DNA of 64,000 nt from Chondrosia reniformis. Taxonomy: Eukaryota > Porifera > Demospongiae > Chondrillida > Chondrillidae. The DNA is taken from assembly GCA_947172415.1 (NCBI GenBank), contig OX359200.1, positions 5,210,501-5,274,500 of the forward strand, written 5' to 3'. The position numbers were made by a program, and so were the translations under genes. Shown here piece by piece: positions 7,977 to 64,000 of the stretch; positions within the stretch are counted from its first letter, which is position 1, and each line of letters begins with the position of its first letter. The notes beneath the pieces are model-generated. The model searched no databases. It was given only the letters and a program-made list of their open reading frames with translations, and had not been told where the DNA came from.

Positions 7977-10900
7977 ATGGTTTTTTCAACCAACTTTGTT
8001 TTCCTCATTTGCGTGATAATGACCGCTTGTAAGTTAAGAGTTAATCGATAATATAAGCATTTCAATAATGTAACTAATAAAATTGGGTCTATATAAAACG
8101 CCATACTGTGTAAAGCTAAATCATTAACCATTAGGACCCCTTTCACATTTAACAACATCTATATATTAGAACTCATTTAAGGTTATCTTTCGTCTTATTC
8201 TTATAAAATTGCGACAAAGATAATATGTTATTTCTAATCGCTACATGCTGTGTATATGATAATGTATGTAGACTTTGATCACTCTTATATTGTGTACAGT
8301 ACAAGTTACGACATCTCAGCCAACTACTATTGCAGTGGGGAGTATTAGTGATTCAACTACTACAATCTCTGTAACACCTACCATTGGTCAATCAGTAGAA
8401 CTGCAGTGTAGTGGGAGTGGTGTAGGTAAACAGTGGTACACTACAGGAAGTGTAATAAGATCCACTCAAAATGTAATAAGTACAAGAGGTGGAGCTATTA
8501 CTAGGACATTGGCTTTCTCTTCATTCACTCCAAGTCATGCTGGAACATACACTTGTTTGGTATCTTCTCCTGGTGATACTCAGACATACCCTGTGGTACT
8601 TGGTGAGTCTATATAGTACTCCTTTATCCATATAGTAGGTCACACAAAACAGACTAAAGAGGTGGTGTATGAAGATGTAGATTCAAAAGAGGTTGACCTC
8701 CTCCAGCCCAACCCATCTTATGTAACTGTTTCCTCTCCCCTCTCCTCGCCTGAAATGTCTGGTCAGGTGCAGGGTCCAGTGTATGAGGAGTGTGAGATGA
8801 GGGACAGAGAGGTGATTGAGGAGAACCCTGCTTATGGTGCAGCAATTGATGTTCAATATTTATATAATGAAGCCAATTTTTTAACATTCTGATTTTGTAC
8901 TTTCTGTATCTTTTACATCAGATGAGATTGCAATTGCTCTCATCATTCTTCATGTTTTGGTCCAATTATATACAGTACACACATATATAATATATTGTAT
9001 AGTATATTGTAACTTGTACTGTATATATATATAAATTTCTTTGTATATATAAATAGGAATGTTGTGTATTGTTATTGATTCTTAAGTGACTTCCTATACT
9101 GTTAACTGTTAACTTCATTTTCTATCAGCTTGTTTTCAAATGTCTTTTGTTACATAATATTGTAACACTTCCTCATTTAATAATTTAAAGGATAACTTAA
9201 CTCTATATATGGTAATTATTCCTATAAATGTTTGATGTATACACATCCATTGAGTTTAGATTGCTACTTTTATGTACATGTATGTACAAGCATGTAAATG
9301 CCTTATTTTAAACATTCAGACAAATTTATTTCCAAATGAAATTTACCATCAATTATCTGTTACAGTGGAAATGGGCTATGTACCTATATACATAATCGGT
9401 TATAGATACTTTCATGTTGATGTGACACTATGATATTAAGAGAATATAACTGATCCATTAATTGTTGATTGTATCCACTGGTAGGTATATAATTATTGAC
9501 CTACGTATATAGTTAATTTGGCACAAGTATTTAGGATATTGGGCATATATATGCATGTATATAACTTGCACATTATTGGCCTAATGTATGTGCATGCACT
9601 GCTTACTACACTATATATATAGGCTATAGCATTAAAATTACTGTTTTGATATGTAAGATTCAGTTATACATTTGTCGTTGAGGGTAAATTGATTTTACCT
9701 TGCATTAGAAGTGTTTTGGTGATGTCCATTTAGCACTCATTTTTGATGTTTTTAACCCATATGCACCAAGTAATTGCAAATCTACCCAAACGGCTGTGTA
9801 CAGAAGGCATTAGAATGAGAAGAGAAGGAACTACCAGCAACGTGTTTTAGAGATTGAACGTGGGTCTTTTACCCCCTTAGTTTTCTCAACAACAGGTGAC
9901 ATGCACGGGCCCTGCAGCTCCAGTACCTATGGGAGGCTATATAGCCTCTCTTCTTGCAGAGAAGAGGTCTGCCCCATACCACCATGTCATCAACTGGCTT
10001 TGTTGCCTGCTAAATGTTTCACTGTTGAGATCCACATTCATGTGCATTCGGGGTGCACGATCAACCTCAAATGGACCTGGCAGATCAGTAATACACGACA
10101 ACCTAGCAATGTTGGGCTCAGCTGCTAGATGACTTCTACGATCATGATAAATAAATGTATTTCTTACTCATACCATTATGTTGCACATCAGTATTATGTT
10201 ATCACCAAATGTTGTATATACCATTTTCAATTATTATTATTATAATTACAATGTCTATTTATAAATTCTGTAGTTAATCCATCAGCAACTAACACCTTAA
10301 CAGTTGGAAGGACTGATGATCCAACTACTCCTATCACTATAACACCTACCCTCAGTCAACCTGTAGAGTTGGAATGTGACAGACAGACTGCAGGAAAGAA
10401 CTGGTACACTGATGGAACTATAGTAACCAACACTCCTGGAGAACTTGCTACTTCAGCTGGAACTGTTAGAACACTATCTATTTCATCATTCAGTCCATCT
10501 CATGCAAAAGGATACACATGTACTGTGAATGGAGGTACATCTACTGCTTATCCTGTTATACTGGGTAAGTGAGGCAATATTTTTAAGGTTTTATGGTACA
10601 TATTTATGTAATGATAAATGATAGATAAGTTTATTGGAGCTATCTGCAGTGAAAATCGAGCTAGATTGAACGTTTCATCCCATAGGTCTTCATAGGTAAT
10701 AATGAGGAAAGGATTACGGTAGTTGGTTTAAATAGAAAAAGTGACAGGATTTGAAAATTGAATAGAAGTTCCAAAATAAAAAAATTAATTTCTGGTGTTA
10801 ATTGATTTATCAATTTGTTTCAAGTAGGGTTTTACCCTTTTAATGGAACCGCCATTTTATCAGCTACAATTTGATACCACGAAGAGCCAGGTCGCTCTAA

Positions 10901-13900
10901 AAAAATTCAAGAATTTTGTATCAAATTTGATACCGTGCGAGGGTATGAGGGATATTTATGTAATATTGACTGTCAATATTTTAACTATCTGATTGTCTAA
11001 GTGAAGGTTTATTATTTATGTAATTCAAAAGTGCAAAGTGTGTTCATGTTTCATTTAACTATGCATGAATTTCAACTAAAATGGTTAAAACTGACAAGTG
11101 AATTACATGATGGCAACTGGTTAAGATGGCCCCTCCCACTGGAGTGGACTGAGTATTTGATTATCAGTTTCTGATAAAGAGAATAACCACTAATTTGTGT
11201 AAATAGAAACTATAATAATTATTGCTTTGTTTATCATTATATACGTACATGTATATAAGCAGGTGGCATCAATAGAGCATCAACACTGAATCAATGGTAG
11301 AGAACTGGTGGTCATAACCAACTGTACTGGCTTTGATTCCAAGTGTAGTTGTTTTCTTTCTTCTATGTTTACTTGTAACTAGTAAAAGTAATTGTATACA
11401 TATATACAATCATCGAACTTATCTTTTATGTGAATCATCTTTTGACTTTCTGAACATCTTAAATCTTGATAATCCTTTTGTTGTTGGACATTTGACTCTA
11501 TACTTTCAGAACTGCTATACTTTTTTATATGACTTGCCCCTTCCTGCATGGGAAATGATATCAATGAAATAATTGGATCAAACAAAGAAGGCACCTTTGA
11601 CCTACAGTGGTACATAGTCATGCATGCTAGCTCATAAAGAAGACCCATGCACAGTGGTGAAGCAATTAGTGTGCAGTAATAAATTGAACTGTGTTCCTAG
11701 ATGATTAATGAAATCAAACAATGATCCTCAGGCTGCTAAAATTTCTATTAATGATGTCTGGAAATGTGTGGAGTCATATTTTATTGCTTTCCGTTGCCAC
11801 AGAAACTCCACCTCCAGTACCTGTAATACCTCCACCATCTCAAGTCCAAGGTGTAATGGTAACTCGAAGTGGAACATCCTTGACTGTTTCATGGACTGCA
11901 GTTACTGTAACTGATCCAAGGTATAGAATTTTATATGTAGTCAGATATTCAACTGATAGCGGTACTCAGACAGATCCACCATCTGATGCTATGAAGAGAT
12001 CAGGAATCAGTGCTACATCAACTACACTAACAGGACTTCAATCAAATACCACTTACTATGTTTGGGTAGCAGCTGAAATCCTTGGTGCTGGAGTGCAAGG
12101 ACCTTACAGTACAAGATTTCCCAATGAAGGTATAAAGTTACATGTCATAGATTTATTAGATACGTAGGTTATATATATAGATAAGAAATATTAAAAATTT
12201 TCTACAAAAATAGTGAAGATGTAGGGATGGCATAAAAAGTAGAGAAACAAGAAAGGGATGTTACACAGTGAAGCATTAGCTATATATGCATGAATCATAC
12301 AACACCCTTGCTTGTAGGATTCATGTATAGCTAATGCTTCACTGTGTAACATCCCTTTCTTGTTTCTCTACTTTTTATGCCATCCCTACATCTTCACTAT
12401 TTTTGTAGAAAATTTTTAATATTTCTAGTTTCTGTACTTTTTATGGAGCATGGGCTAGGAATTAGATTCATATAATTAAAATCATTTTGGATTCGCAATC
12501 TTCGACTGATTATGACGTCATTAAAATGGCGACTTTATTGAGGCCTTGACTCTAGGGTCATGAAAACCGTCATGCTCAATAATAGCGTTATCGCTCTCGC
12601 TTCTACAAAAGAATACAGCTCGGAAAATTTGCAGTAGTTTCGTGTAACAATTAGTCCAAAAGCTTATATAGTTTTTTAGTTATGGCTGACGAAGAAGAAG
12701 AAGAAGAAGAAGAAGAACATGAAGAAGACGAAAATGGGAATTTTTAAAGTTTATTATTTCGCCAGCGGGACATATCCGCTTGCTTTTAAGGTCTATTTAG
12801 AGTATGTATATTGTATATATAGCTATACAAAGCCTTGTTTTGTCGATTTTCGGCCTATTTCGGGATTTCGCTCCTATACCAATGTATGGGGAAAACGAAA
12901 AAAAAACGTGTCATCCCTACATAGGGAGTACTACCGTACTCCCTGATATAGAAGAAATCCCTATCATCTTTATAATATGTTTATAATACATGGTTTTACT
13001 GCCTGTGTGTAATTAACCAATTAAGCATCACTATTATATACGTACGTATATCACAAGGGAGTACACTTGGCCTGTGAACAGGCTATGATGATAAGCAAAA
13101 AATAATTACAGGAAAGTATTACGCCAATGCGATTAACCAGTCAAGTGACTGAAGTCTAATCTTGGCTGGGGACCGAAGTTATATTAAATTGGCAAACAAT
13201 ATATCACTATATATAAAGCTGTCATATTACTATTACTCTAGTATGTTGCTTATAATTTGTATAATTTATTCTAATAAAACCACAGCAAGCTTTCAAGTGA
13301 CTGTTACTAGGGGGACATTGGATGGATTTCCATTCTTAGTAATCTCTTGGAATAGGGAGGTGGAATCTGGCATAACTTACATTGTGAGATATTCAGTTGA
13401 TAGTGGTAGTAAAACAGAACCACCATCTGGAGCATCCACTGTATCAGGAATCCTAGGCTCACCTGTAACACTAGTCAAACTTACACAAGGTACAACATAC
13501 TACATTTGGGTAGCAGCTGTTAGGAATGGTGAACAGTCACCTTACAGTAGAAGAGTGTCAGAGACTACTTATCAAGGTTTAGTTAATAAGCACATATGCA
13601 GTTAATTCTTGTGTACTTTGAATACCCTTCACAATGAAGATAAATTGAGCACTGCACGCAGCTTAAAGGCATAATACATGCATATAAAGAAGCTGATTAG
13701 CCACAACCACATCTGTATTCTTATATTGACTTGGAACTATATAGTACATGCAGTGAACAAGGATATTGTATACTATTGCTTAACGATGTATGAATATATA
13801 TGTACGATCATTCATTTCATTTCACCAATTACTGTCTGTATATGTATATAGCCCCTCCAGTGGTCCAAGGTGTTACAGTTATTCCAAATGTGACTAAAAT

Positions 13901-16900
13901 AAGTAGATCTCCGTCCTTGATTGTCGAATGGTCTGCTCCAGTTGGGGATGACATCACTTATGTAGTCCTCTACTCAACTATTAGACTGACTAATCCCCTG
14001 CAGGGTGCGGTGGAGAGGGAGGCATCTTGTCCCTTAATCTACCTGACTGGTCTCACCAGAGGTACAAGGTACTACATCTGGGTTTGTGCAGTGGCTAATG
14101 GTCTTCATGGACCATACAGTAGAGTAACCATGGCTACCACAGTTAACTGTAAGTAATACGTACATATATACTGTATCAAAAACATAGTGCTATTATATAT
14201 ATATGTAAATCAAATAAGAATTAAAAATGAAAAAGGAATAGAGATGACACTGCATGCTTGTAGAATTCAGCAAATCTAGAAATAATATTTAAACAAGATA
14301 TTGACTATATTTAGTGGACTGTCATAAGGTTATCTACCAAATGTTCACTTTTGTTAGTCTAACCAATCTAATTTTAGTGATATGAGGTGTTTTGCTTCCC
14401 CTATAGTCATGGCAGGGTGGACATTTTTTCATGTCAACTTCAGATTTTGTGGGCACCTTTCCAATCATTGTTATATAATATATAATAGTATATTGGTAAC
14501 TTACCTTGTGTATTACGTATGTGTAAATAGGCTACTTTTCTTTTTGTATGTACATTAATGTTATACTGTATGCATGCAATTCGAATGTGAAATGTGATTA
14601 TTAAGTATTTCTATATATCATATAGTTCCAGGTTCTCCAACAGCTCTTGATATTACTCCTCCATCTGGATCATGTGACCAACTGATGATAACCTGGAAAG
14701 CACCATCTATCACTGGAGGACTACCAGTCAAGTATAAAGTATATGCCAACAATGAAACCCAGTTGATATTAGATTCCAGAAATACAGTCACCTTTACTGG
14801 TCTAACAGCTAACACACTATACACAGTGAGAGTAGTAGCTTTCAATGACTTGGGAGATGGAGGAGAAGTGACAGGAACAGGGAAAACTAGACCTAAAGGT
14901 TTGCTATACTAATTTATGCAGTGGAACCTGCATCCCTATATATACTAGTCCAACCAGCATTATATAGGACTGCATTTGATGGTATATTATGTATGTATAT
15001 ATGTATACTGCATCCCTATATATACTAGTCCATCCAGCATTATATTTGACTTAATTATTTGATGGTATTATATTTAGGCAGGTATTATAATTATATATGA
15101 GATTACTATGTTTTTTGTAAAATGCACTATATACATAGTGATAAGTAGCTCTACCAGTATTTTAAAATATTACATAATTTAAATGTCTCAGACTTGATTA
15201 AAGCAACCATTTCATGCCAAAAACTGTCCTATGGAGAAGTGACTATTCAGAGAGGTTACATACAAGTCCATCTATATAATGAATTGTGATATCTAATAAA
15301 GATGTATTTAAGTGGAGAATAAATAGTCACTACATACGTAAATTTATTGCAGGCTTGATAGCAGTCAAATTGTCTACATCTTTTGCAACACAAATTGCTG
15401 TTGACATAGCTACAATGCCTGATAGTCCATTGAATCTGTTCAGTTGCACCATTATGCCAAATAATAACCTCCCTCAGCCAAGACATATAACTGGTTCTGA
15501 AGCTAAATATGTTGTGGATGGACTGAGACCAGGAGTGAATCACACTGTCAAATGTACTGCTTCATTTAATGGAATAGAATCTTGTGAATCCGTCAGTAAT
15601 TCATTAGGTATGAAAGATATATTTGTATATGCTCAATGCATAATGTATATTTAAATGATGTATAGAGATGCACCAGATCTAGATTAATATCAGAGAGATA
15701 GGATTTACAAAGGTTCACTTCCCAGTGCTTCTGCAATAACATTTGTACAATATACAGTACAGTATGTTATTCTGATACTGTAAAGGCCTCATTGCTGCAT
15801 AGAGGGTACTGATTATTGAAAGTTGTTGAGTGTAATTGCAGAGATGGGGATACACAATGAACAATTCAATTATTTCCAGGATATTTCGATCCGGAGATCT
15901 TTCTCAACTGGTATAAAACTAATAAACTGACATGACTGAAAGAAACTCTTACTAAACCCTTATTATGTTCTGCTACATATTTTCTACGTATTTCCACCAC
16001 ATACGTATGTATATTATTAAATTCCTATTCTACATATTTCTACCACATATTAATAAATTCTTATTACTCTAGTAACACCAACATTACCACCGCAAATCCA
16101 GTCCATTTCCATAACTATACCAATAAGTACAGCACCTACTTTGATAATCTCATGGGATCGCATCATAAACTACGACTACCAGGTGACATACACTGTGAGG
16201 TATTCAACAAGTAGAGGTACTGCAACAGAACCACCATCTGGAGCACCAACCATATCAGGAATTACTGGTACATCAACTGCAGTGACTGGACTTGCTCAAG
16301 GTACAACCTACTATATTTGGGTGAAGGCAGTAGCATCTGTTGGTGATGGACCTTACAGTGCCAGAACTCAAACACGAACAATAAGAAGTAAGATCCTTAA
16401 CCGTTTATGTACCTTAATTTGTTGTGTATATAAGTACCTTATGTAGTTTATACAATTTTAACACATACATAGATGTAATATATAGCAATATGCATTATTG
16501 GAAATCGAATAATAGATTGTGAATTGTGTATATAAGTAAAACATTTTTGATAAAACTTAAGATATATATACGGAATTACCGAGGTGTCAAATCAATGTGC
16601 ATTAAAAGATTATGGATGCAGGCAAAAGTCGCAATCTCAGAGATATACATACGTAAATTGACTTCCAGATCTACTTTCTGTACATAATTTACACTACAAT
16701 CAATAATATTTATACGGATATGAAGATTTAATATAAATGGAATGTATATAATACTAATAATATAAAGTACATGTATGTACATATTCATGTATTATACAAT
16801 ATCCTTGTTCACTGTACTAGTTCCAAATCAGATTAACATGACAGATGTGATTGTAGTTAGTCAGAATCTTCTTTGGGCTAACTGGTCGGCTCCTTCAAGT

Positions 16901-18233
16901 GAGCGTCCAATTCAGCACTATGAAGTGGAGTACAGAGCAGTAGATAGTGGATCAACTGACTGGAACAGAGTATCAATGAACCCAACTACGACATCAGCTG
17001 CCTTAAAGAACCTTAAACCAGGAACTACCTACCAAGTGAGAGTGAGAGCTGTGTCTGACGTTGGAAGTGGAAAATGGAGTATCATAGTTAGTAGGACTAC
17101 TTATAATGGTACGTATGTTACTGTAAGCATTGGACAGCTAATCTTGATATATACTGCTTTGTGTGTAAACGTTACAAGTTATTCATGTAGTGTTGATAAA
17201 ACAACAGTTTTTATAAGAATGGCATAATTTTGACTGTTAGTATATGTATATGTACGGATCTGTTTCCCTGCTTGATATAATAGCATACGTACGTATATAT
17301 ATTTACTATCAGTAGTATTAGTGAAAGTACATCTAATGGTAGATGGTATGTGTGTAAATTAGATACTTCATTATAATTATTTACAATAGTAACTATTGTA
17401 CCACATTTATATAATGTTTTAAAGCAAGTTTAGACATGAAAACTGTACCATACTGTACATGTCCACATGTTCAACTCAGATACTGATGAGTGTGAAAGTG
17501 ATAATGGAGGATGTCAACACATCTGTGTGAACACAATTGGATCGTACTACTGTTTGTGTTTACCAGGATATACATTACATGAAGATGGGCACACTTGTGT
17601 GAGGAGTGAGTATGTATACATGTACATATTCAATAACTCTGAATTAATTGTATGTGTGAGTATAGATACTGCTCATGTACAGGTACATGCAGAAATCATA
17701 GTTTTGTATTATTCCATATAACTAGTACTAACTTTTTATTACCTTTCAGATGAAGAGATTTCTATAAACTTTGCAATGATCAGTGTTTCTGGAAGAGAAG
17801 GACAAAGACTGGTTCTTGCTGTGGAGAGAATAGGATGGACGAGAGCACCTTTATCAGTACCTGTTAGCATTCTTCATCTCAACACAAGCTTTCCTAATCA
17901 AGGTACAGACTATATTGTGAATTACCTTATGTTCCTTGGTAATTTGTATAGAATATAATTAGTGTTGCTATATATATTAAGATTAAAATTACACATAATT
18001 CAGTTTTGTACCTTATATAATACACAGCTAATGAGGGAGACTATTCTCTGTTAACAAAAGCACTGACATTCAATTCTATCTATGCATCAAATGAGAGACA
18101 AGTGGTTGCCATAGATCTGATTGAAGATGGTAATGAAGGGGAAGAGGATGAACTGTTTTATGTCCTTCTTCATCCTCCTCCAGAAGTACAGAGCAAGAAG
18201 AAATTAGTCACTTGTGTTATTCATGTCGGTTGA
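7977..18233 (+). CDS. Ig/FN3/EGF/Calx-beta secreted protein, copy B (complete)
   Basis: Thirteen exons: signal peptide 7977-8028 ([17 protein letters not shown]), Ig-1 8300-8602, Ig-2 10274-10564, FN3-1 11803-12129, FN3-2 13286-13576, FN3-3 13852-14148, FN3-4 14626-14898, FN3-like 15353-15607, FN3-6 16073-16387, FN3-7 16821-17108, EGF 17480-17605, Calx-beta 17750-17902 and 18028-18233. The spliced length is 3177 nt, 1058 residues, open throughout, all phase-1 junctions. Ig-1 has the C...W...YTC pattern (LQC, KQWYTTG, GTYTCLV) and Ig-2 likewise (ECDRQ, NWYTDG, YTCTV). There is no transmembrane helix after the Calx-beta stop, so a secreted matrix or recognition protein is expected. The first donor is cttgtaagt where other copies have ctggtaagt. 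Introns contain a foreign tail-like ORF and several mobile elements. Confidence 0.85.
8639..8892 (+). other. Orphan receptor-tail-like ORF in copy B intron 2
   Basis: Between the two Ig exons lies an open segment ending in TGA at 8890-8892 whose product looks like an intracellular tail: acidic and polar, tyrosine-rich, with VVYEDV (ITIM-like spacing), two NPxY motifs (NPSY and NPAY) and VYEEC. It is absent from copies C and D at this place. The frame is closed upstream by a stop near 8614, and the nearest plausible acceptors do not give an open phase-1 junction from Ig-1. It may be a transposed terminal exon of a receptor gene or an unused alternative 3' exon. Codon use and GC content are higher than in the surrounding intron. 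Confidence 0.5.
9700..10190 (+). mobile_element. Probable degraded retroelement fragment in copy B intron 2
   Basis: This segment is missing from the same intron in copy C, where flanking text joins directly (about 20265-20290). It contains an open frame (about 9896-10132) with the stretch [14 protein letters not shown], which resembles the terminal region of proteins linked to invertebrate retroelements. No catalytic motif is present, so the family assignment is weak. Confidence 0.35.
10620..11280. other. Copy B intron 3, insertion-rich
   Basis: Part of the intron between Ig-2 and FN3-1. The segment about 10635-10960 has no counterpart in the copy C or D introns and includes text like cataggtcttcat, reminiscent of PLE ends elsewhere in the window. 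From about 11090 it is collinear with copies C and D. No exon is seen. Confidence 0.4.
12174..12955. mobile_element. Foldback/MITE-type element in copy B intron 4
   Basis: Insertion of about 0.78 kb between sequences that are contiguous in copy D (37010-37045). It has an inverted repeat on its left side (12184-12295 with 12318-12426, nearly perfect for about 100 bp) and ends on the right with catccctacatagggagtac then tagtactccct-type sequence, the same signature as the 6343 and 22325 elements. A (GAA)n run lies at about 12687-12718. The flanks share tatata, a possible target duplication. Confidence 0.65.
12184..12426. repeat. Inverted repeat, arms about 110 bp
   Basis: Left arm 12184-12295 and right arm 12318-12426 pair almost perfectly, with one small 4-nt bulge near the loop. 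It carries tagggatggc and its complement gccatccct. It would form a long hairpin in the copy B pre-mRNA. Confidence 0.85.
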
Positions 18234-19033: not shown

Positions 19034-22000
19034 ATGGTTTTTTCTACCAACTTTGTTTTCCTTATTTGCATGATAACGACCGCTGGTAAGTTAAGAGGTA
19101 ATCGATAAACCTTAATTGGGTCTATATTCGCCACACTGTGTAAAGCTGATCATGAGCCATTACATGTTAATCATAGGAACTGGTGCAATTTAACCACATC
19201 TATAGAAATCCCTTAAGTTTAAGCTCGTCTGCTTCTTATAAAATTGGGACATAGTTTTTTTTCTAATACATGCTGTGTAAGAGATTTAATAATGTAGTCT
19301 TTGATCATGATTGACTCTTATATTGTTTACAGTACAAGTTACTGCATCTCAGCCAACTACTATTGCTGTGGGGAGTTCTACTGATTCAACTACTGTAACA
19401 CCTACCATTGGTCAATCAGTAGAACTGCAGTGTAGGCGTATAGGGATAAGAAAGGAGTGGTACACAACAGGAAGTGTAGTAACACCCACTTCAAATGAAA
19501 TAAGTACAGCTCCTGGAGCTACTAGGATATTGGCCTTCTCTTCATTCACTCCAAGTCATGCTGGAACATACACTTGTTTGGTATCGACTCCTGGTGATAC
19601 TCAGACAAAAACAACATACCCTGTGGTACTTGGTGAGTCTATATATATGGCACTCCTTTAAAAAGACTATGATACTAAGAGAATATTTAATAGATACCTG
19701 ATCCATTAATTGTTGATTGTATCCACTGCTATGTATATATTGATTGACCTATAGTTAGCGAATTTGGCACAAGTACATTTATTGTGCATATGTATGCATC
19801 AATGTCCGGTACAACTTACAGATTATTGACCTAATGTATGTGTATGCACTCCTTAATAAGTATCTTAATTTATTGAGACTCAGCAACAATTGTATTTAAA
19901 ACAAAATGAGCGTTTTGACCCAGAGGTCTTCATCAGCATCATAATATAAATTAGGATATTTATTATGAATGCAACAAAAAAACCATATCACTGCTTAATA
20001 TACACTATATATAGGCTGTAGCATTAAAATGCACTCTATGTGACCGTCCATGTACGAAAAGGCCCATTTTCATGTATGCAACTGAGATTGCATTTTTGAT
20101 ATTGTTTGAAAGGGCTTCTGTAGTTCTATTGAATGGTGCAAACGGAAGTGTCATAGCTGTTACGGATCCGAAGTTACAATACTTTGCAATCAAATATGTA
20201 CGTATATTATACATACTTGATTATTTTGATGGGTAAAATTCAGTTACACTTGTCGTTGAGAGTATATTGATTTTACTTTGCATAATATATCAGACCTGTT
20301 ATTAAAATGTCTGTTTATAAATTCTGTAGTTAATCCATCAGCAACTAACACCTTAACAGTTGGAAGGACTGATGATCCAACTACTACTATCATTATAACG
20401 CCTACCCTCAGTCAACCTGTAGAGTTGGAATGTGACAGACAGACTACAGGGAAGAACTGGTACACTGATGGAACTGTAGTAACCAACACTCCTGGAGAAC
20501 TTGCTACTTCAGCTGGAGGAGTTAGAACACTATCTATTTCATCATTCAGTCCATCTCATGCAAGAGGATACACATGTACTGTGAATGGAGGTACATCTAC
20601 TGCTTATCCTGTTTTACTAGGTAAGTGAGGCAATAATTTATGATATATAGTTAATTGAACTTGACCGAAGTCCTATTAAATTGGCAAGCATTGATTGCCT
20701 CCCAGTCATCCAAGTTGGAAAAAAATTATTTATGAATTATATTAATCAAGTATTTCTAACATTTAAAACTGACAAGTGAATTTCGTAATAGAATAAGGAT
20801 TTCTTCTAACTGCATTGAACTTAACTGTAAGATTTCAAGTCGCTGAAGAAGACCCTTAGGGTCAAAATGTCCAATCAGAAGATTTACCAAGACAAACTGC
20901 GTTTTTAGATGCTCAAAGAGTCAAAGGATGAACCATCTTAAAGATAAGTGAATTACGTACATGATGGTAACTGGTTAAGATGGGTACTTAGCTCCCACTG
21001 GAATGGACTGAGTAATTGCTTATTACAAAGAAGACACCTTTGACCAGCAGTGGTATATAGTCATACTTGTCGATCACAGCTCAAAAAGAAGATCCATACA
21101 CAATGGTGAAACAATTAGTAATAATACATTGAACTGTGTTCCTATAGATGATTAAATGCAATGATCCTGCTAAAACAATGATGTCTGGAATGTGTGGAGT
21201 TATTTTTTAATTGCTTTCCATTGCCACAGTGACTCCACCTGCAGTACCTGTAATATCTCCACCATCTCAAGTCCAAGGTGTAATGGTAACTCAAAGTGGA
21301 ACATCCTCGACTGTTTCATGGACTGCAGTACTGACTGATCCAAAGTATAATATATTATATGTAGTCAGATATTCAACTGATAGCGGTACTCGGACAGATC
21401 CACCATCTGATGCTATGAAGAGATCAGGAATTACAGCTACATCAACTACTCTGACTGGACTTCAACCAGATACCATCTACTATGTTTGGGTAGCAGCTGA
21501 AATCCTTGGTGCTGGAGTGCAAGGATCTTATAGTACAAGATTTCCCAATGAAGGTATATAAAGTGACTTGTTGAGATAGGTTATAGATATAAAGATAGAA
21601 GAAATCCCTATAATCTATACTGTATATATGTGTATACATGTGTGATCTTATGTATAGTTAACTAATTACAGTATGATGGTTCCTGTATTCAAACTAAAAG
21701 ACAGTTGATAAAGCTGTCATATTACTATTGCTCTAGTATAATATATCGTTTATAATTTGTATAATTTATTCACAGCAAGCTTTCAAGTGACTGTTACTAG
21801 GGGGACATTGGATGGATTTCCATTCTTAGTAATCTCTTGGAATAGGGAGGTGGAATCTGGCATAACTTACATTGTGAGGTATTCAGTTGATAGTGGTACT
21901 GAAACAAAACCACCATCTGGAGCATCCACTGTATCAGGAATTCTAGGCTCACCCGTAACACTAGTCAATCTTACACAAGGTACAACATACTACATTTGGG

Positions 22001-33328: not shown

Positions 33329-36300
33329 ATGGTTTTTTCTAACTTGGTTTTCCTCATTTGTGTGATAATGACCGTTGGTAAGTTAAGAGATAATCGATTA
33401 ACCTTTCAATAATGTCTATAAATTGGGTCTATTATATAAGGCTATAAATTATATTCGCCAGACTGTGTAAAACTGATCATGAGTCATATGCATGTTAATC
33501 ATATAATAGGTCACAATTTTCGCCATTATATATATCATCCTTACTTCACCACCTGTCAAACACATCTATATATTAGAACTCACTTATCTTTGGTCTTTCT
33601 ATATATAAGGCTAACCAAGTTACAAAATAGTCTAATCATTCTTGTGTTTGTATGCAATCAAACATGGTCTTAAAATGTATATAGCTCCCCTCAATCACAA
33701 AGGGACATCATATGACATACATATATAAAGTCCTTGGCCTTTTATGTCCTGTGTACAAGTTACAAATGGTCTCTAACCCTGTTGATTATGCGAATGCATG
33801 CAACCATCCGTCGCTATTCTTAGCTCCCTCACAAGGCAAATCAAATCTGCTGTTGTTATTAGCTGAGACCCCTTTAAGACTGGAACCTTTGTTGAAATAT
33901 GGCATGCAAATGCATCATCTTCAGTCTATACTAAGGTGTGAAAAAGTAATTGGTAGGCCATGTGTTTTACCTTGCAATTGGATGATCTGTATCAACTACG
34001 TACTTCTCTCTATATATGCAGTAGTTGAGAATTTCAAAGTCTGCAACTATACGTATATTACCTTAATATATTGTAACTTGTACTGTATATAATATAAGAT
34101 TTTGTTGTAATCTATACGCTAGGCTTGTAATATTGTTTTTCTATTATAAACGTGCTGTTTAATTAATGTAGACATTGATCATTGATTGATTCTTATTATT
34201 TATTATTTTCAGTACAAGTAACTGCATCTCAGCCAACTACTATTGCAGTGGGGAGAGCTACTGATTCAACCACTACAATCACTGTAACACCTACCATTGG
34301 TCAATCAGTAGTACTGCAGTGTAGGCGTATAGGGATAAAACAGTGGTACACAACAGGAAGTGTAGTAAGGCCCACTCCAAAAGAAATACGTACAAGAGGT
34401 GGACCTATTAAGATATTGGCTTTCTCTTCATTCACTCCAAGTCATGCTGGAACATACACTTGTTTGATATCTTCTAAAGGTGATACTCAGACAAAAACAA
34501 CGTACCCTGTGGTACTTGGTGAGTCATTATGCAGGCGTATAGGATTTGAAGTTAGGGGGGGACTTATATTACATATTGGACATTTTAAGCCAAAATATGG
34601 ACAATTTGTACTGTAAACTTATATGAAATTGATATTAAAATTTTACGTGTTGATTTTTGGGTTAGATAATTAATCTTTTGGGGGGGATTAGATGGAATAA
34701 ACTCTGGAGGGGAAATCCCAGATTTTTCAGGGTTCTGTATGAACCCCTGTTATAATATTCCTTCTTATAAATATTTGATGTGCATCCATTGAGTTTATAT
34801 TAATTGCTTCTGTGCATTTTTTTAAATTTTTATAATAATTTTAGATAAATAAATATATACAATTATATTGTATTTGTTTGTTTTGATGCACATGTTGTTG
34901 AGTGATTTTACCATGCAGTTACCACATCATATTTATCAGAATTGTTTTCATAATGTCAGTTCATAAATTCTGTAGTTAATCCATCAGCAATTAATACAAT
35001 AAGAGTTGGAAGGACTGATGATCCAGCTACTCCTATCACTATAACACCTACCCTCAGTCAACCTGTAGAGTTGAAATGTGACAGACAGACTACAGGAAAG
35101 AACTGGTACACTGATGGAACTATAGTAACCACCACTCCTGGAGAACTTGCTACTTCGGCTAGAGCTGGAGTTAGAACACTATCTATTTCATCATTCAGTC
35201 CATCTCATGCAAGAGGATACACATGTACTGTGAATGGAGGTACATCTTATCCTGTTTTACTAGGTAAGTGAGGCAATAATCAGAGTTATATATATTTTGT
35301 ATAGTTGCCAGTTTTAACTTGTTTATGGTGATTATGTATTATGTATATATATTCTATGAATTAATACCATTCGATGCACTTAACTGTATGGTATGCAGAC
35401 GTTAGTTAAACTGTAATATTTTTGTACTGGCTTATATTAGTGTAATTACCTTTTCAATGTATGAATATATACGTAAATACATACATAATCACCGTAGACA
35501 GAAAATAATAATCAACTACTCAGTTCATTCCAGTGGGGGGGGGGGCATCTTAAGGTTTTATGCATACATACTGACGTAATATATATTGCCTATCACTATA
35601 CAGTCAAGCCTCTACGTATGTAGTATATATGTTGCCTGTCTATAGTGCAAATTGTGTTCATGTTTCATTTTATAAATATACATTCAAACTAAAATGTTTG
35701 ATTAATTGTTTTAAAGTATTTATAACATTTAAAACTGACAAGTGAATTACATGATGGCAACTGGTTAAGATGGCCCCTCCCACTGGAATGGACTGAGTAT
35801 TTGATTATCAGTTTCTGACAAAGAGAATAACCACTAATTTGTGTGAATACAGACTACAGTCGAACCTCGTTAAGACGAAATTCAAGGGATCTACTCAGAA
35901 ATTCATATTATCTATATAAGCAGGTAGCATTAATAGTGCATGCAACACTGAATCAATGGCAGAGAACTGGTGGTTGTACTGGGTTTGATTCTAAGTGCAT
36001 GTACGCAGTTCTTGTAATTGATTATCACTTATATACATTACACTAGCAAGTAAAAGTGTTTTATTATTTTAGTATTTATCTTTATTTAGGTAAAACTAAA
36101 GCGATCTGACCATTTTAATTTGCACTGTTAGAGTACTCTATATTATACCTAACTTTTAAGCAAAAGAAAAAATAGCATGTGGTAGGCCTTTTAAAGTAAT
36201 TAAATTGATTGTAGATGTTAACATGATCAGTGATTAAAGAATAATTCTTCTATATGAATCATCTTTTGACTTTCTGAACATGTTAAATCACGATTAATAA

Positions 36301-46745: not shown

Positions 46746-46749
46746 AACA

Positions 46750-47922: not shown

Positions 47923-50171
47923 ATGGCTGCTTCATTTGGAATAAATCTGTTGACCCTGGTCTATGTGTTGGGACTTGAAATTTCTATATGCTACTCTTCT
48001 ATTATTGACAAAAACACTGGATTTGAAACACATCATTTACAAAGGGTATTAATATGATATACATATTCACACTTCTACATACATATTATTCTTGTATAAT
48101 GGACTGTATATTTATACAAACTTTAACTTGGTGTTTTATAATATACTGTACATATATTAACTTTAGCTAGTGAAATTCTCACTTTGAAATTTTCTAGAGG
48201 TCAACTTTCCCAACAAAGGACTGCACTTCAGCTAATGACGGAGAGGTCTTACATTTCAGTGGAGGACCACAGATCAAAACAATATGGATATGTCAGAATG
48301 ATGATTGGATTCCTCATGAGTACGTGTATATAAACACACAATAAATGGCACTGTATTCAACATGCAAATAATTTTGTATGTATGTGCAATTGCTTGTAAC
48401 ATTAAATGGTGTACAGATATAATTTATTCATATATAGCTGAGTATGAATATATATATATTTATAGTTATAATGGCAATTGTATATAGAAATGGCCCACAT
48501 TTTGCTCATGATTAAACAGTTTGCAATTGACTATATTGGACTGCATATCATGCACCTATTCTGTACAGTGAAAAGCGTGTATATAAGCGGTCACCTGACT
48601 TGAGCGGTCACCTGACTTGAGTGGTAACCTCCAAATTCAGCCCTTAAAATCCTGTCAAAATTATCTTATGTATAAAATGAATGGCCTTTGCTTTCTATAA
48701 TGTTGTCACCTCTCTAACAAGGCCAAATTCAGCAGACTTCATGTATTAGACAGGTTTTACTATATAATATGAAATAGTTTTATTATATACAATCAAAAGG
48801 TAATTTAGTATTATTATTGTGCTATCTATTTAATATATATTTATATATGCGTCTGGCAGTTTCAGTGCCACATACACACTTATCAATATATACTTTAAGA
48901 CCAGAGCAAAGTAATAGTTCATAACGTTCTTGAACTGATCTATCACAAATTGTATGAGCTACTTTCTATTATTTTATTAAGGCTCCCTGTTTATACCAGC
49001 TATGGGCTATGTACCTATTTTAAACAATAACAATAACAATAACATAAATGCATTAAGATCATAGCTTTGCATAATTATATTATACATGTATGCAATTTAA
49101 ATAAAAAGAACACATTCCCTACAGTGTTACCCCATCTCTTGGAAAGAGTGAGTTTGTTGCTGCTTCCTCTTGTAAAGAGATCAGAGACGTTCTGTCTAAT
49201 GAATGTTCTGGAAGACCACAGAGTGGAACTTACTGGATCAGTGCAATGGAATGGTGCGACTATGACTGTCAGACATATCCAAACAAGACCATGCAAGTGA
49301 GGGGGACTAGCTATATGCTTTATATATATATATGAATAGTTGAACTATTATTATCAAACTATATACAACATCAATTAGTGGGCTGGTATTCAAAATTGTT
49401 GTTGTGAAGTGCCATTTTTTAATAAAGTTAAATAGTTGAAGTGTTTCGCGTCAAACCACAACATCAGTAAAGGTTTAGAATCATTGTCTTGCCTATCCTA
49501 TATACGTAGCTACATACTATATACGTATATATAGGAATCTTCACTTGATGGCCATTTTTGCGATAAACACCGGTGACCATTATGTGTTTGTTTAGCAAAA
49601 TTTGTTATTGTCATGCATTGTATTCATACAGGTGCACTGTGAAATGGATTTGGATGGAGGTGGATGGACCATGGTATGGAAGTATTCATACTTGGAGGTG
49701 CTACCTCTCACAACAGATATGTACTATTTCAGTGACTATTTCAAGCAGTGCAGTGACCTGGAATCGGGATGGTGTAATATTCCTAAGAAGAGACGATTTA
49801 AGCCAACAGAGATGCTCATTGCTGCTTATCACAACAAAGTTGTCTGGTTTGCTTACAAGGGTTGGTTCAACTGGAACATTGACAATGACTGGACAGGTGG
49901 AATACTTATTGAACCAAAGAAGATTGTGGACACGTGTACCTGGACTGATCACACACAAGGGATTGAACCAGCCCCAAGCTCACCTGATGATGATAGGAGA
50001 CTTCTTGGAATTAATTTTGATAAACACTCTCCTCGTGACTATTTAGTAAACTGTGTGGGTTATCATGGAACATTTGATTCACCAATTGAATGTAGATGGG
50101 GTGATTGCCATTGGGGTGGTAATAGAGCTTTGGTGCACCAACAGATGACAATTGCTATTTACATTCGATGA
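47923..50171 (+). CDS. Secreted fibrinogen-related protein F2
   Basis: Four exons: 47923-48045, 48198-48319, 49125-49296, 49632-50171, total 957 nt, 318 residues. Exon 1 gives a signal peptide and linker (ending FETHHLQR). Exon 2 encodes a small two-Cys module (KDCTSANDGEVLHFSG ... WICQNDDW). Exon 3 and the start of exon 4 show the FReD/COLFI-type entry: SCKEI, SGTYWISAMEWCDYDC, VHCEMDLDGGGWTMVW. The C-terminal two-thirds is divergent, rich in Trp and Cys, and lacks the canonical Ca-site and the WWYxxC motif. Likely a secreted lectin-like protein; the ligand is unknown. It is paired with F5 in a segmental duplication. Confidence 0.8.
48565..48780. mobile_element. pogo-like MITE remnant in F2 intron 2
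   Basis: Begins cagtgaaaagcgtgtatata then agcggtcacctgacttgagc, and ends in cacctctctaacaaggcc and acaggttttacta, the usual look of short pogo-class elements. The cacctgacttgag unit is tandemly repeated here (two copies) and at 57730 (four copies). A related copy lies at 54763-54950. Confidence 0.5.
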
Positions 50172-53330: not shown

Positions 53331-54143
53331 ATGTTTAAAGTGTTCCTCTTTGCTATACTTGTAGTTCTTGGGTGTGGACAGGAATGTAAGTCAGTTAAAC
53401 TCAACTCTCACTTATAGACAGACAATTCTTTCAGTGTATGACCAAACAGTCTATTTCTGTGTACAGGCAAGAGATATCCCGACTGCATCCCCACTGACTG
53501 TCAGGAGGTTAAGGACAAGTGTGGATGTGACAGCTCTGGAGTCTACACAATCAACATGTGTGGAAAGGTCAGGAATGTCCACTGTGACATGCTAGGAGCT
53601 GTGGGTTGGACTGTCTTTCAGCGTCGTCAAGATGGCTCGGTCAACTTCTACAGAGACTATGTGGACTACATTGATGGGTTTGGCAGCGCAGATGGGGAGT
53701 ACTGGCTGGGTCTGGACAACATTCACTGCCTGACCACAAGGTCACCTAAAGCTGAACTCCTTGTTGACCTGGCTGACTTTGAGGGTAACTATAAGTATGC
53801 TCGATATAGCTACTTTTCAATTGGTAATGGAGACACTGGATACAGAATAAACATTGGAGGGTACAGTGGAACAGCTGGTGATGGCATGAATGGAGGTGGA
53901 AATCCAGCAAATGGAATGTCCTTTACTACAAGAGATCATGATGCCGATGCTAGTGACAGCAACTGTGCTGTGACAAACAAAGGTGCTTGGTGGTATAAGG
54001 CCTGTCATGATGCCAACATCAATGGACAGTATCTCAGTGGACCACAGTCATCCTATGCTGATGGAGTCATCTGGCATCCTTTTAGAGGTCACCAGTATTC
54101 TCTCAAGTACACAGCAATGAAGATGCACAACACAAGGAATTAG
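53331..54143 (+). CDS. Secreted canonical fibrinogen-related (FReD) protein F3
   Basis: Two exons, 53331-53385 and 53467-54143, total 732 nt, 243 residues. Exon 1 is a signal peptide (MFKVFLFAILVVLGCGQE). The rest is one complete FReD domain: CGCDSSGVYTINMCG, VHCDM, GWTVFQRRQDGSVNFYR, EYWLGLDNIHCLT, a Ca-site DHDADASDSNCA, GAWWYKACHDANINGQY and the C-terminal GHQYSLKYTAMKM. This matches the length and motif order of ficolin, tachylectin-5 and tenascin FReDs. In that family the Ca-site and Cys loop build a pocket for acetylated sugars or protein ligands. GC content and codon use are higher than in F2/F5 and it is not their close paralogue. Intact. Confidence 0.9.
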
Positions 54144-57068: not shown

Positions 57069-59344
57069 ATGACTGCTTCATTTGGAATAAATCTGTTGAT
57101 CCTCGTCTGTGTGTTGGGACTTGAAATTTCTATATGCTACTCTTCTATTATTGACAAAAACACTGGATTTGAAACACATCATTTACAAAGGGTATTAATG
57201 TGATATACATATTCACACTTCTACCTACATATTATTCTTGTATATTGGACTGTATATATATACAAACTTTAACTTGGTGTTTTATAATATACTCTGCATA
57301 TATTAACTTTAGCTAGTGAAATTCTCACTTTGAAATTTTCTAGAGGTCAACTTTCCCAACAAAGGACTGCACTTCAGCTAATGACGGAGAGGTCTTACAT
57401 TTCAGTGGAGGACCACAGATCAAAACAATATGGATATGTCAGAATGATGATTGGATTCCTCATGAGTACGTGTATATAAACACACAATAAATGGCACTGT
57501 ATTCAACATGCAAATAATTTTGTTTGCAGATGATTCTGTATGTGCAATTGCTTGTAACATTAAATGGTGTACAGATATAATTTATTCATAGCTGAGTATG
57601 AATATATATTTATAGTTATAATGGCAATATATAGAAATGGCCCACATTTTGCTCATGGTTAAACAGTTTGCAATTGACTATATTGGACTGTATATCGTGC
57701 ACCTATTCTGTACAGTGAAAAGCATGTATATAAGCGGTCACCTGACTTGAGCGGTCACCTGACTTGAGTGGTCACCTGACTTGAGTGGTCACCTGACTTG
57801 AACTGTCACCTCCAAATTCAGCCTTTAAAATCCTGGCAAAATTATCTTATGTATAAAATGAATGGTCTTTGCTTTCTATAATGTGGTCACCTCTCTAACA
57901 AGGCTAAATTCAGCAGACTGCATGTATTAGACAGGTTTAATATATAATATGGAATAGTTATAATCAAAATGTAATTATTATTGTGCTATCTATATAATAT
58001 GTGTCTGGCAGTTTAAGTGCTATAGTAAGAGTAAAAGCTATATACCTATCAATATATACTTTAAGACCAGAGCAAAGTTCTTGAACTGATCCATCACAAA
58101 TTGTATGAGCTACTTTCTATTATTTTATTAAGGCTCCTTGTTTATACCAGCTCTGCATGGGCTATGTACCAATTTAAACAATAACATTAAGATCATAGCT
58201 TTGCATATATATACGTATATGCAATTTAAATAAAAACAATGCATTCCCTACAGTGTGACCCCATCTCTTGGTAAGACTGAAACTGTGGCTGCTTCCTCTT
58301 GTAAAGAGATCAGAGACGTTCTGTCTAATGAATGTTCTGGAAGACCACAGAGTGGAACTTACTGGATCAGTGTAATGGAATGGTGCGACTGTGACTGTCA
58401 GATAAACCCAAACAAGACCATGCAAGTGAGGGGACTATATACATTATATGAATAGTTGAACTATACAACATCAATTAGTGGGCTGATATTCAAATCTGTT
58501 GTTGTAAACTATAATGTTTTTACTTGACAGCCATTTTTTCAATAAACAAGTTGAATAGTTGAATTTTTTTGTGTCAAACCACAACATCAGTAAAGGTATA
58601 TAATCATTGTTTTGTGAAACATTATAAACAGGAATAATCCTATATAGCTATATGCCATAGGAATTTTTACTTGACGGCCATTTTTGTGATAAACACCCGT
58701 GGTCATATTGTGCAATTTCTACTGACACACATAAAATACAAGCTGCTTTATCTAGTTTAGTTGTCATGCATATTTGTTTGTCTTGTATATTCATTGTATT
58801 CATACAGGTACACTGTGAAATGGATTTGGATGGTGGAGGATGGACCATGGTATGGAAGCATTCATACATGGAGGTGCTACCTCTCACAACAGATATGTAC
58901 TATTTCAGTGACTATTTCAAGCAGTGCAGTGACCTGGAATCGGGATGGTGTAATATTCCTAAGAAGAGACGATTTAAGCCAACAGAGATGCTCATTGCTG
59001 CTTATCACAACAAAGTTGTCAGGTTTGCTTACAAGGGTTGGTTCAACTGGAACATTGACAATGACTGGACAGGTGGAATACTTATTGAACCAAAGAAGAT
59101 TGTGGACACATGTACTGCAACAGATTGGTCACAAGGGATTGAACCAGCCCCAAGCTCAAATGATGAGAGGAGGCTTCTTGGAATTAATTTTGATATACAC
59201 TCTCCTCGTGACTATTTAGTAAACTGTAATGGTTATCATGGAACATTTGATTCACCAACTGAATGCAGATGGCACGATTGTGATTGGCAAGGAAATAGAG
59301 CTTTGGTGAACCAACAGATAACAATTGCTATTTACATTCGATAA
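57069..59344 (+). CDS. Secreted fibrinogen-related protein F5
   Basis: Four exons: 57069-57191, 57344-57465, 58254-58425, 58808-59344, total 954 nt, 317 residues. Same architecture as F2: signal peptide (MTASFGINLLILVCVLGLEI), two-Cys module, FReD/COLFI-like entry (SGTYWISVMEWCDCDC, VHCEMDLDGGGWTMVW) and divergent Trp/Cys-rich C-terminus. Differences from F2 cluster in two surface-like segments: CTATDWSQGIEP versus CTWTDHTQGIEP, and CRWHDCDWQGN versus CRWGDCHWGGN. Exon 2 is the same in both genes by my reading. Intron 2 carries the same pogo-like remnant as F2, with four rather than two cacctgacttgag units. An AATAAA lies at about 59468, a candidate polyadenylation signal. Confidence 0.8.
57715..57960. 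mobile_element. pogo-like MITE remnant in F5 intron 2
   Basis: Same element as at 48565-48780. The unit ggtcacctgacttgagt is repeated four times here, showing expansion or contraction after duplication of the block. Confidence 0.5.
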
Positions 59345-59519
59345 TATATCTCCTCTAAACAACTGCAGTCATATTGACAATATCACTCTGTAGGGAAATT
59401 AACAGTACTATATTATTTACGAAAAGTATTATCATTTTCCCCATTAAGTCTGATATGTATTGTCAATTGAATAAACTTTAATTTGAAATGATAAATGATA
59501 TCTGAAGTGCCACCCATCT

Positions 59520-60857: not shown

Positions 60858-62023
60858 CAGGAACTACCTGCCAAATGAGAGTGAGAGCTGTGTCTGATGT
60901 TGGAAGTGGAGAATGGAGTATCATAGTTAGTAGGACTACTTATGATGGTATGCTACTGTAAGCATTGGACAGCTAATCTTGATATATTCTGCTTTGTGTG
61001 TAAACGTTACAAGTTATTCATGTAATGTTGATAAAACAACAGTTTTTATAAGAATGGCATAATTTTGACTGTTAGTATACGTACGTATTTGTTTCCCTGT
61101 TTGCATTGGTTGTAGTATCAGTGAAAGTACATCAAATGGTAGATGGTACTTTGTGTGTAAATTATTTCATTATAATTATTTACAGTAGTAACATTGTATT
61201 GTATGTTTATAAAATGTTTTTAAAGCAAGTGTAGACATGAAAACTGTATCATGCTGTACATGTCTACATGTTCAACTCAGATACCAATGAGTTCGAAAGT
61301 TATAATGGAGGATGTCAACACATCTGTGTGAACACATTTGGATCGTACTACTGTTTGTGTTTACCAGGATATACATTACATGAAGATGGGCGAGGAGTGA
61401 GTAGGTACACATGCGCATATTCAATAACTCTGATTTAATTGTATGTCTAAGATACAGTGTACATGTAAACATACGTACATACGTACATACGTACATGTAC
61501 AGGTACAGAAATCATAGTTTTGTATATTCAATATAACTTGTATTAACTTTTTATAATCTTTCAGATGAAGAAGTTTCTATAAACTTTGAAATGATCGGTG
61601 TTTCTGGAAGAGAAGGACAAAGACTGGTTCTTGCTGTGGACAGAATAGGATGGACCAGAGCACCTTTATCAGTACCTGTTAGCATCCTTCATCTCAATAC
61701 AAGCTTTCCTAATCAAGGTACAGACTATATTGTGAATTACCTTATGTTCCTTGGTAATGTGGCTATATATATTAAGATTAAAATTACAAATAATTCAGTT
61801 TGACATCTTATACACAGCTAATGAGGGTGACTATTCTCTGTTAACAAAAGAACTGACATTCAATTCTATCTATGCATCAAATGAGAGACAAGTAGTTGCC
61901 ATAGATCTGATTGAAGATGGTAATGAAGGGGAGGAGGATGAGCTGTTTTATGTCCTTCTTCGTCCTCCTCCAGAAGTACAGAGCAAGAAGAAATTAGTCA
62001 CTTGTGTTATTCATGTCGGTTGA
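60858..62023 (+). pseudogene. Truncated copy of the Ig/FN3/EGF/Calx-beta gene
   Basis: Starts inside an FN3-7 exon (60858-60947) and continues with EGF (61281-61396) and both Calx-beta exons (61565-61717, 61818-62023). All upstream exons are missing. In the EGF the first Cys is replaced by Phe (TNEFES instead of TDECES), and about 10 bp are deleted near its end, removing the last Cys and shifting the frame. The Calx-beta exons remain open and intact. The 3' flank is nearly identical to that of copy B, so this fragment probably derives from a copy B-like gene. Confidence 0.8.
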
Positions 62024-63094
62024 AACACTTAGTTTATCTTCTTAGTGTATAGCTTTTGTAAGCTTACAGCATCATTTGGAATTTATTAAGTATTTAGGCC
62101 GTATACCTGTGTGAACAGCTGCATGATTATATACAAGTTATTCAAATGAGTATACAGTATAGTTTCACAAGTGTACATGTGTATTGACATTAATTGTCAT
62201 ACATATAGTGACATGTCACCTATACATTACCAGGAAAGCTTGCTAACATTCTTCTTTCCAATAGTACCTTTTAAATTTACTAAAGCTAGTAATTAGTTTA
62301 AAAGGTGTGTATTTGTACACAATTATAATGATTCTTGTATATGAAACAACACTGCAGTGTTATTACATATACATGTATATTGCCTTATGATCGCTAGAAA
62401 AATATATATATGCATAGCTTACTTAAAGAATTAACAAACACACCTTATATTGATATCACATATGATTAATATAATTCTGCAGACATGGGGTCCTATTCCA
62501 TGTGTGCTGTAAGTGGATTCAATGGATTTGCTGAACCAAGTGTCTACTACTATATATATTCATGAAGAACAGCTGTAAGTGTTGATGGAACCTATAGTGT
62601 ACTGAAAAGTATAGAAACAGTATCAATATACAAGCTTTTTGCCTCCACATACATACGTAGAGGTATGCATGTCAGATGTAAATTTTAGAAATAAGTAGTA
62701 AAAAAATCAGTGAGGCTGCAGTCTCCATATTTAAATTACTTGGCCTCTTTGTGGGGCTTATATATAGTCCTAACTTTATTGATTCTGGATGTTTAGTATC
62801 TTCAAAAACTTAAGTTTCCACAACACCACCATTTGCAAATATGTATAAATAAAGTGTAATACTAATAGTGAATGAACTGTCTGCATATGAGATGAGTGTA
62901 ACAACGTTAACTGGATGTAAGAATGAAATTAATATAGGGGCAGCCCCTATAAATTTATATGCATGTAAAATGTGAATCCGATCCTTACTTGACAATCTTA
63001 TGTAGTGTGTCAAATTATTATGTTAACAATATAATACATATAAATAAACTAAACATACTGACTGACAGCCTATAATAAAGTATATACCTTCCTC
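62024..63094. other. Spacer before copy E, mosaic of two other spacers
   Basis: 62024-62455 follows the copy B 3' flank (18234-18660), while 62865-63094 follows the A to B spacer (7440-7640), including the taggggcagcccctat palindrome. The middle, 62456-62864, is not seen elsewhere. It contains an acceptor-like ctgcag at about 62475-62480, after which a short frame runs GSYSMCAVSGFNGFAEPS to a TGA at about 62565, perhaps the end of an Ig- or FN3-type exon from another gene; this is weak. Confidence 0.45.
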
Positions 63095-63431: not shown

Positions 63432-64000
63432 ATGGTTTTTTCAACCAACTTTGTTTTCCTTATTTGCGTGATAACGACCGCTGGTAAGTTGAGAGGTAAT
63501 CGATAAACCTTTCAATAATGTAACTAATAAAATTGGGTCTATATAAAACGCCATACTGTGTAAAGCTAAATCATTAGCCATTAGGACCCCTTTCACATTT
63601 AACCACATCTATATATTAGAACTCATTTAAGGTTATCTTTCGTCTTATTCTTATAAAATTGCGACAAAGATAATATGTTATTTCTAATAGCTACATGCTG
63701 TGTAATATGATAATGTATAAAGACTTTGATCATGATTGACTCTTATATTGTGTACAGTACAAGTTACTGCATCTCAGTCAACTACTATTGCAGTGGGGAG
63801 TATTAGTGATTCAACTACTACAATCTCTGTAACACCTGCCATTGGTCAATCAGTAGAACTGCAGTGTAGTGGGAGTGGTGTAAATAAACAATGGTACACA
63901 ACAGGAAGTGTAGTAGCACCCACTCCAAATGAAATAAGTACAACTCCTGGAGCTACTAGGATATTGGCTTTCTCTTCATTCACTCCAAGTTATGCTGGAA
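63432..64000 (+). CDS. Ig/FN3/EGF/Calx-beta secreted protein, copy E (3' part beyond window)
   Basis: Signal exon 63432-63483 ([17 protein letters not shown], donor ctggtaagt) and the first part of Ig-1 from 63758 to the window end. The Ig-1 reading frame is open. Its loop after the first Cys (CSGSGVNKQW) is copy B-like, while the loop after WYTTGSV (VAPTPNEISTTPG) is copy C-like, so this exon looks like a mosaic. By analogy the gene continues with Ig-2, seven FN3, EGF and Calx-beta beyond the edge. Confidence 0.8.

Follow-up and report, generated by a model that had tools for sequence, protein, structure and literature searches.

Here, we identify a tandem gene family on chromosome 12 (C12) of the kidney sponge Chondrosia reniformis in which the loops of the first immunoglobulin (Ig) exon, Ig-1, change amino acids above the silent rate and segments of the Ig exons recombine among copies. 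The family was found in a window of 64,000 bases (C12:5210501-5274500), the whole stretch of DNA that was analysed, and was followed through a genome of 117,379,552 bases in 15 contigs; the odChoReni1.1 assembly is described as comprising 14 chromosomes and a mitochondrial genome, with a length of 117.37 Mb (PMC12181767). Copies B, C and D each run from a signal-peptide exon through Ig-1, Ig-2, seven FN3-like exons, an EGF exon and two Calx-beta-like exons to a stop. These genes probably represent recognition proteins that are encoded in the germline as a repertoire, with selection and gene conversion as the sources of their diversity. According to this model, they would form a tandem family of secreted proteins carrying two N-terminal Ig domains on an FN3-like rod with an EGF and Calx-beta-like end. 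The Ig frame would be kept constant, while positive selection would alter the loops of the BC/DE/FG end together with the C'D edge, and gene conversion or unequal exchange would swap segments between copies. Each copy would offer its own binding surface, which the constant part may carry, space or anchor in the matrix, and such a layout would function as an innate repertoire for recognition. How sponges discriminate self and symbionts from strangers is a long-standing question for which, to our knowledge, there is no receptor on which the field agrees; an Ig family that is large, under selection and recombining supplies tests of this question with named genes and residues, in a sponge rich in microbes. 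It would also indicate that Ig loops came to be used in an antibody-like way in lineages other than those commonly considered.

Several lines of evidence argue for selection in the loops, which were set beforehand from a model of Ig-2 (predicted local distance difference test score, pLDDT, 86) and transferred to Ig-1 by sequence alignment. First, the Ig-1 exons and peptides of copies B, C, D and E lie where an initial annotation of this DNA had placed them, and the Ig fold proposed there is supported by sequence, with two cysteines and a tryptophan present. The annotation had described the differences among these exons as focused in three loop-like segments. Their focus in loops holds, with 16 of 23 a priori loop columns varying in amino acid compared to 23 of 79 columns elsewhere (Fisher p 6e-4); the count of three does not, since a variable stretch at residues 14-23 had been missed and the second segment spans both C'D and DE. 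A cruder clustering test was weaker: with four copies, 132 of 5000 shuffles reached the observed value, and including copy A lowered this count to 24 of 5000. The replacement:silent per-site ratio among copies B to E is 1.49 in the loops, 0.80 outside them and 0.60 in the strands, and in-frame length changes in the alignment of 46 Ig-1 and 41 Ig-2 exons are located in BC, DE and FG. Across whole exons of the window copies, the ratio of replacement to silent divergence (dN/dS) is 0.85 for Ig-1 and 0.68 for Ig-2, compared to 0.24-0.79 for FN3, 0.62 for EGF, and 0.96 and 0.24 for the two Calx-like exons, although the values for small exons rest on few changes; the statement that the FN3 exons lack the pattern thus agrees with the data. 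Silent divergence (dS) is also highest in Ig-1 (0.133 vs 0.042-0.114 in 11 other exons) and, therefore, not all of the excess of Ig-1 over FN3 is due to selection, part of it being age or less homogenization.

Second, a tree-free test on pairs of copies from the genome gave the same contrast. The exon set comprised 46 intact Ig-1 and 41 intact Ig-2 exons, chosen for the quality of their match from chromosomes 12, 6 and 1; it leaves out matches on other chromosomes and many on chromosome 6, and seven partial rows were excluded (two broken Ig-1 exons in two pieces each, one frameshifted Ig-2 exon in two pieces, and one edge-cut Ig-2 exon). Because the best 150 of 288 candidates were scored in the genome Ig search, copy numbers are lower bounds. 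Independent close pairs were chosen by total divergence under 0.10, since a filter on silent distance would bias the ratio. For Ig-1 (18 pairs), the ratio of replacement to silent differences per site (pN/pS) was 1.79 in the loops (bootstrap 1.32-2.84) and 1.00 outside them (0.77-1.39). For Ig-2 (16 pairs), the corresponding values were 1.77 (1.20-2.81) and 0.75 (0.55-0.98), with the loop value at 1.94 when 20 pairs were used. Silent rates within Ig-1 were alike in loop (0.070) and non-loop (0.055) positions, and the contrast within the exon therefore stands. Third, a codon-site test on all 46 Ig-1 exons and 40 of the 41 Ig-2 exons (one duplicate removed) gave, with one tree, twice the log-likelihood difference (2dlnL) of 77.6 for Ig-1 and 41.9 for Ig-2. 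Among the 15 Ig-1 sites at posterior 0.9, nine fall in the loops, which make up 21 of the 100 positions (p 4e-4), and at this posterior the Ig-1 and Ig-2 sites coincide at five homologous positions vs 1.6 expected (p 0.008). Thus, the proposed loop-focused replacement with pN/pS above 1 was borne out by both tests. By contrast, the absence of the pattern from Ig-2 applies to the chromosome-12 copies alone (loop pN/pS 0.82 in five pairs; 2dlnL 3.5) and not to the family as a whole.

Segments of the Ig exons recombine among copies. Replacing one tree by three block trees gained 442 log units for Ig-1 and 382 for Ig-2, compared to 75-135 overall in simulations without recombination (eight each; 91-135 for Ig-1). 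We infer from this gain that the segments differ in history, by gene conversion or unequal exchange together with point change. Recombination bears on two alternative explanations. It could be that the loop signal is an artefact of imposing one tree on recombining paralogues, of misaligned indels or of saturated silent sites. A single tree does misfit, and null data simulated with recombinant blocks (25 sets per domain, fitted to one tree) inflate the statistic to means of 13.5 for Ig-1 and 7.3 for Ig-2; however, their maxima were 30.9 and 21.3, below the observed values, and 2dlnL was still 51.7 and 39.4 with three block trees, nulls having been simulated for the one-tree analysis only. Moreover, the pair test uses no tree and only pairs of low divergence, and the selected columns are mostly ungapped. 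We therefore regard an artefact as highly improbable. Alternatively, constraint may simply be relaxed, with loops that tolerate change and gene conversion that shuffles old motifs, without selection for diversity or a recognition role. The strong recombination fits this idea, as does the recurrence of loop motifs on chromosomes 12 and 6, e.g., the BC motif GSGV in 10 of 46 Ig-1 exons. However, relaxation by itself cannot push replacements past the silent rate, whereas the bootstrap limits of the tree-free test exceed 1 in the loops of both domains at similar silent rates in and out of loops, and the site statistic lies above all values from the nulls with recombination. Relaxed constraint on its own is, thus, unlikely.

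Other findings weigh against a selected recognition repertoire. At least two Ig-1 exons and one Ig-2 exon are broken and, thus, some copies decay. The AlphaFold2 model of Ig-1, from 46 sequences, had a pLDDT of 35 and was set aside; it is because this model failed that the loops were taken from Ig-2. The codon-site test was scripted for this study, with kappa kept fixed and branch lengths from FastTree, rather than run in a published program, and for the 11 chromosome-12 Ig-1 copies alone it gave only 8.5, a figure without null simulation. At posterior 0.95, the coincidence of Ig-1 and Ig-2 sites drops to 2 vs 0.64 expected (p 0.12). In the Ig-1 pairs, FG alone is near 1.2 and the N-terminal part at 1.0, while the loops at the opposite end of the domain (CC' and EF) reached 2.36 (1.20 upward) in the closest pairs, with three silent changes, and fell to 1.17 (0.61-4.09) with more pairs. 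Finally, a profile search of a protein database with Ig-1 gave 118 matches among the best 7988 candidates scored, none of them named. Among the first 60 of these, 23 match one of the 46 copies exactly (some from residue 13 on) and 15 of the remaining 37 lie within 14 differences of a copy; those differences show no loop enrichment (46 of 134 vs a column fraction of 0.345 that includes insertion columns; p 0.55).

The predicted product of copy B has 1058 residues, and all of its internal exon junctions are phase 1 and AG/GT-flanked. The Ig-1 exons of copies B, C and D are open, AG/GT-flanked, divisible by three in length and phase 1, and the exons mapped in copies C and D are bordered by AG and GT, with lengths that are multiples of three; for Ig-1 of copy E, the check covered only its initial AG, and the rest of the exon was completed from the genome (locus L012). 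The names FN3-5 and Calx-beta are tentative because both matches lie below the Pfam cut-off (13.4 bits in copy B and 17.8 in copy A vs 25 for FN3-5; 14.2 bits, E 0.045, vs 27 for Calx-beta). A signal-like exon is present in copies B-E, and a stop follows the Calx-like exon in five places, including a truncated copy. A hydropathy scan of the copy B product beyond its signal peptide found no membrane segment, the highest mean over 19 residues being 1.35, which suggests that this product is most likely secreted. The same most likely holds for the other chromosome-12 products, as judged from their exons, and here the annotation of a secreted protein fits; for at least one relative on chromosome 6, which has a probable membrane segment, it does not.

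For nine of the 11 Ig-1 exons taken from the chromosome-12 cluster, a near-identical Calx-like 3' exon follows at a distance of 7.7-9.7 kb (two share one), whereas the other two have none among the matches listed. This 3' exon has 36 matches in all, with nine near-identical full copies (94-100%) and one fragment on chromosome 12, and 18 on chromosome 6 (5.38-5.58 Mb) at 45-50% identity. The latter belong to a second cluster at C6:5.38-5.60 Mb with Ig matches at 50-61%, probably a sister family. Two 10-kb stretches with relatives on chromosome 6 were read. In L063, an Ig-Ig-FN3 head is followed by a frame with a strongly hydrophobic stretch (frame maximum 2.63; part may be intron), a probable membrane segment; among the relatives of this exon, seven closer ones lie on chromosome 6, at 5.09-5.10 and 0.82-1.04 Mb. 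In L062, a Death domain scores over the cut-off (27.4 vs 22.6 bits; L062:7626-8018) 7 kb after the Ig-1 exon at C6:1847620, with a near copy at C6:1802261 (89%). The interval from FN3 to the death exon of L062 shows no clear membrane segment, and Death domains are frequent in this genome (142 matches); head and death domain could share one transcript. A further frame at L062:8573-8917 resembles a death domain by eye, with no Pfam match. The same kind of head stands before a probable membrane segment in one relative and upstream of a death domain in the other, so that a single recognition repertoire is probably common to soluble and cell-bound forms.

The ligands may be microbes or other sponge cells. 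According to PMC12181767, the metagenome of the sequenced specimen has the character typically seen in a high-microbial-abundance sponge, which makes discrimination of symbionts and microbes as likely as recognition of other sponges. A possible, though less probable, alternative that overlaps with a recognition repertoire is that the proteins are variable self-markers or homophilic adhesion proteins, acting in allorecognition or cell sorting and not as microbe receptors. Sponge aggregation factors also have Calx-beta domains, and the Calx-beta-like end would be in keeping with such a role, although its match is below the Pfam cut-off. A secreted form would sit in the matrix, and sponges show allorecognition (PMC5450542); however, many copies per individual are unlike a single polymorphic marker locus. 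We put forward only tentatively, and with considerable doubt, the broader idea of an antibody-like germline repertoire in which recombining double-Ig heads with selected CDR-like loops would be mounted on soluble matrix proteins and on membrane or death-domain receptors for self/non-self or symbiont discrimination. If true, recognition by Ig loops would reach back close to the root of the animal tree.

Among the titles and abstract beginnings listed from the open-licence literature, none treats this Ig family. A search with the full-length protein returned 33 proteins (7992 candidates scored), all with FN3 listed, of which two, a brother-of-CDO and a hemicentin, carry animal names and Ig domains; with the double-Ig part, no protein of similar length was found at E 0.001 (2953 candidates). 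The V-region-containing chitin-binding proteins (VCBPs) of amphioxus and tunicates are secreted multigene products with two diversified N-terminal Ig domains. The sponge family is alike in secretion, in two N-terminal Ig domains with diversified residues and in its multigene nature, but differs by its FN3, EGF and Calx-like end, its many tandem genes and an Ig-1 domain below the Pfam V-set cut-off (21.2 vs 26 bits in copy B); no chitin-binding domain matched in the scanned exons of copies A and B. The fibrinogen-related proteins (FREPs) of snails are Ig-headed and secreted. They diversify by point mutation and recombination (PMC11999971; FREPs also in PMC12074976), and the sponge family is similar in both respects. 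No fibrinogen domain matched in the scanned exons of copies A and B; a Fibrinogen_C reading frame at 53442-54143 (E 4e-63), between copies D and E, is separate. In contrast to Dscam of arthropods and sDscam of chelicerates, diversity in the sponge appears to come from whole genes rather than from large arrays of alternative exons. One Ig-1 exon was matched per gene in copies B, C and D. At locus L035 (C12:5285117-5286909), two Ig-1 exons (C12:5285117 and 5285907) precede one Ig-2; they may be used alternatively, give a protein with three Ig domains or belong to two genes. Allorecognition is the role of the Alr proteins, which are membrane proteins. Like the Alr family of Hydractinia, with 41 members in one complex (PMC11999971), the sponge genes are clustered Ig-superfamily genes in a sessile early-branching animal; unlike Alr, the chromosome-12 products look secreted, and they are known from the assembly of one individual. 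A role in self/non-self recognition has been proposed for the Ig domains of a receptor of the sponge Geodia cydonium. This receptor tyrosine kinase (cited in PMC12018476) likewise has sponge Ig domains, but it is a single gene rather than a large tandem family, and no kinase domain matched in the scanned exons of the C. reniformis family.

Features of the Ig gene family in the window (F1-F7, FN3-like exons; positions counted from the first base of the window)
Feature	Position	Strand	Remark
Copy A, 3' part	894..6092	+	its Ig-1 upstream of the window (L013)
Copy A F1-F4	894-1220, about 1431-1712, 2020-2316, 2736-3008	+	start of F2 not on AG
Copy A F5-F7	3264-3518, 3848-4162, 4670-4957	+	
Copy A EGF	5326-5451	+	
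Copy A Calx-like	5614-5766, 5887-6092	+	latter holds the stop
Copy B signal peptide	7977..8028	+	
Copy B Ig-1	8300..8602	+	residues 1-100 = 8302-8601
Ig-1 N-terminal variable stretch	8341..8370	+	residues 14-23
Ig-1 BC loop	8413..8424	+	CDR1-like; residues 38-41
Ig-1 C'D segment	8455..8475	+	CDR2-like; residues 52-58
Ig-1 DE loop	8488..8499	+	HV4-like; residues 63-66
Ig-1 FG loop	8566..8583	+	CDR3-like; residues 89-94
Copy B Ig-2	10274..10564	+	
Copy B F1-F4	11803-12129, 13286-13576, 13852-14148, 14626-14898	+	
Copy B F5-F7	15353-15607, 16073-16387, 16821-17108	+	F5 weak
Copy B EGF	17480..17605	+	
Copy B Calx-beta-like	17750-17902, 18028-18233	+	end in TGA
Copy C signal peptide	19034..19085	+	
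Copy C Ig-1	19333..19632	+	
Copy C Ig-2	20330-20620	+	
Copy C F1-F4	21230-21553, 21776-22066, 22779-23075, 23723-23995	+	
Copy C F5-F7	24280-24534, 24998-25312, 25690-25977	+	
Copy C EGF	26337-26462	+	
Copy C Calx-like	27627-27779, 27897-28102	+	
Copy D signal peptide	33329..33377	+	
Copy D Ig-1	34213..34518	+	
Copy D Ig-2	34976-35263	+	
Copy D F1-F4	36650-36976, 37799-38089, 38474-38770, 39349-39621	+	
Copy D F5-F7	40295-40549, 41023-41337, 41797-42084	+	
Copy D EGF	42465-42590	+	
Copy D Calx-like	42783-42935, 43059-43264	+	
Truncated copy (end of F7, EGF, Calx-like)	60858..62053	+	match ends, flanks included
Copy E signal peptide	63432..63483	+	
Copy E Ig-1	63758..64000	+	cut by window end; complete in L012

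In the interval from copy D to the truncated copy, no Ig exon was matched. Two frames between copies D and E, 49596-50171 and 58661-59344, are fibrinogen-like by eye, without a Pfam fibrinogen match. A tyrosine-rich frame resembling a cytoplasmic tail lies at 8650-8850, in the intron that separates Ig-1 from Ig-2 in copy B, and also in the corresponding intron of locus L010; it has 18 matches genome-wide, 10 of which are on chromosome 1 at 9.88-10.00 Mb. The EGF-Calx intron of copy C contains a frame of 301 residues (26517-27422) with a GIY-YIG match of 22.0 bits vs a cut-off of 22.6, likely a retroelement remnant. Long inverted repeats at about 6920-7240 and 12200-12420 resemble, by eye, short terminal-repeat elements, and tandem arrays occupy 31657-32310 (105/210-base units, about six copies) and 43756-44872 (34-base units, about 32 copies).

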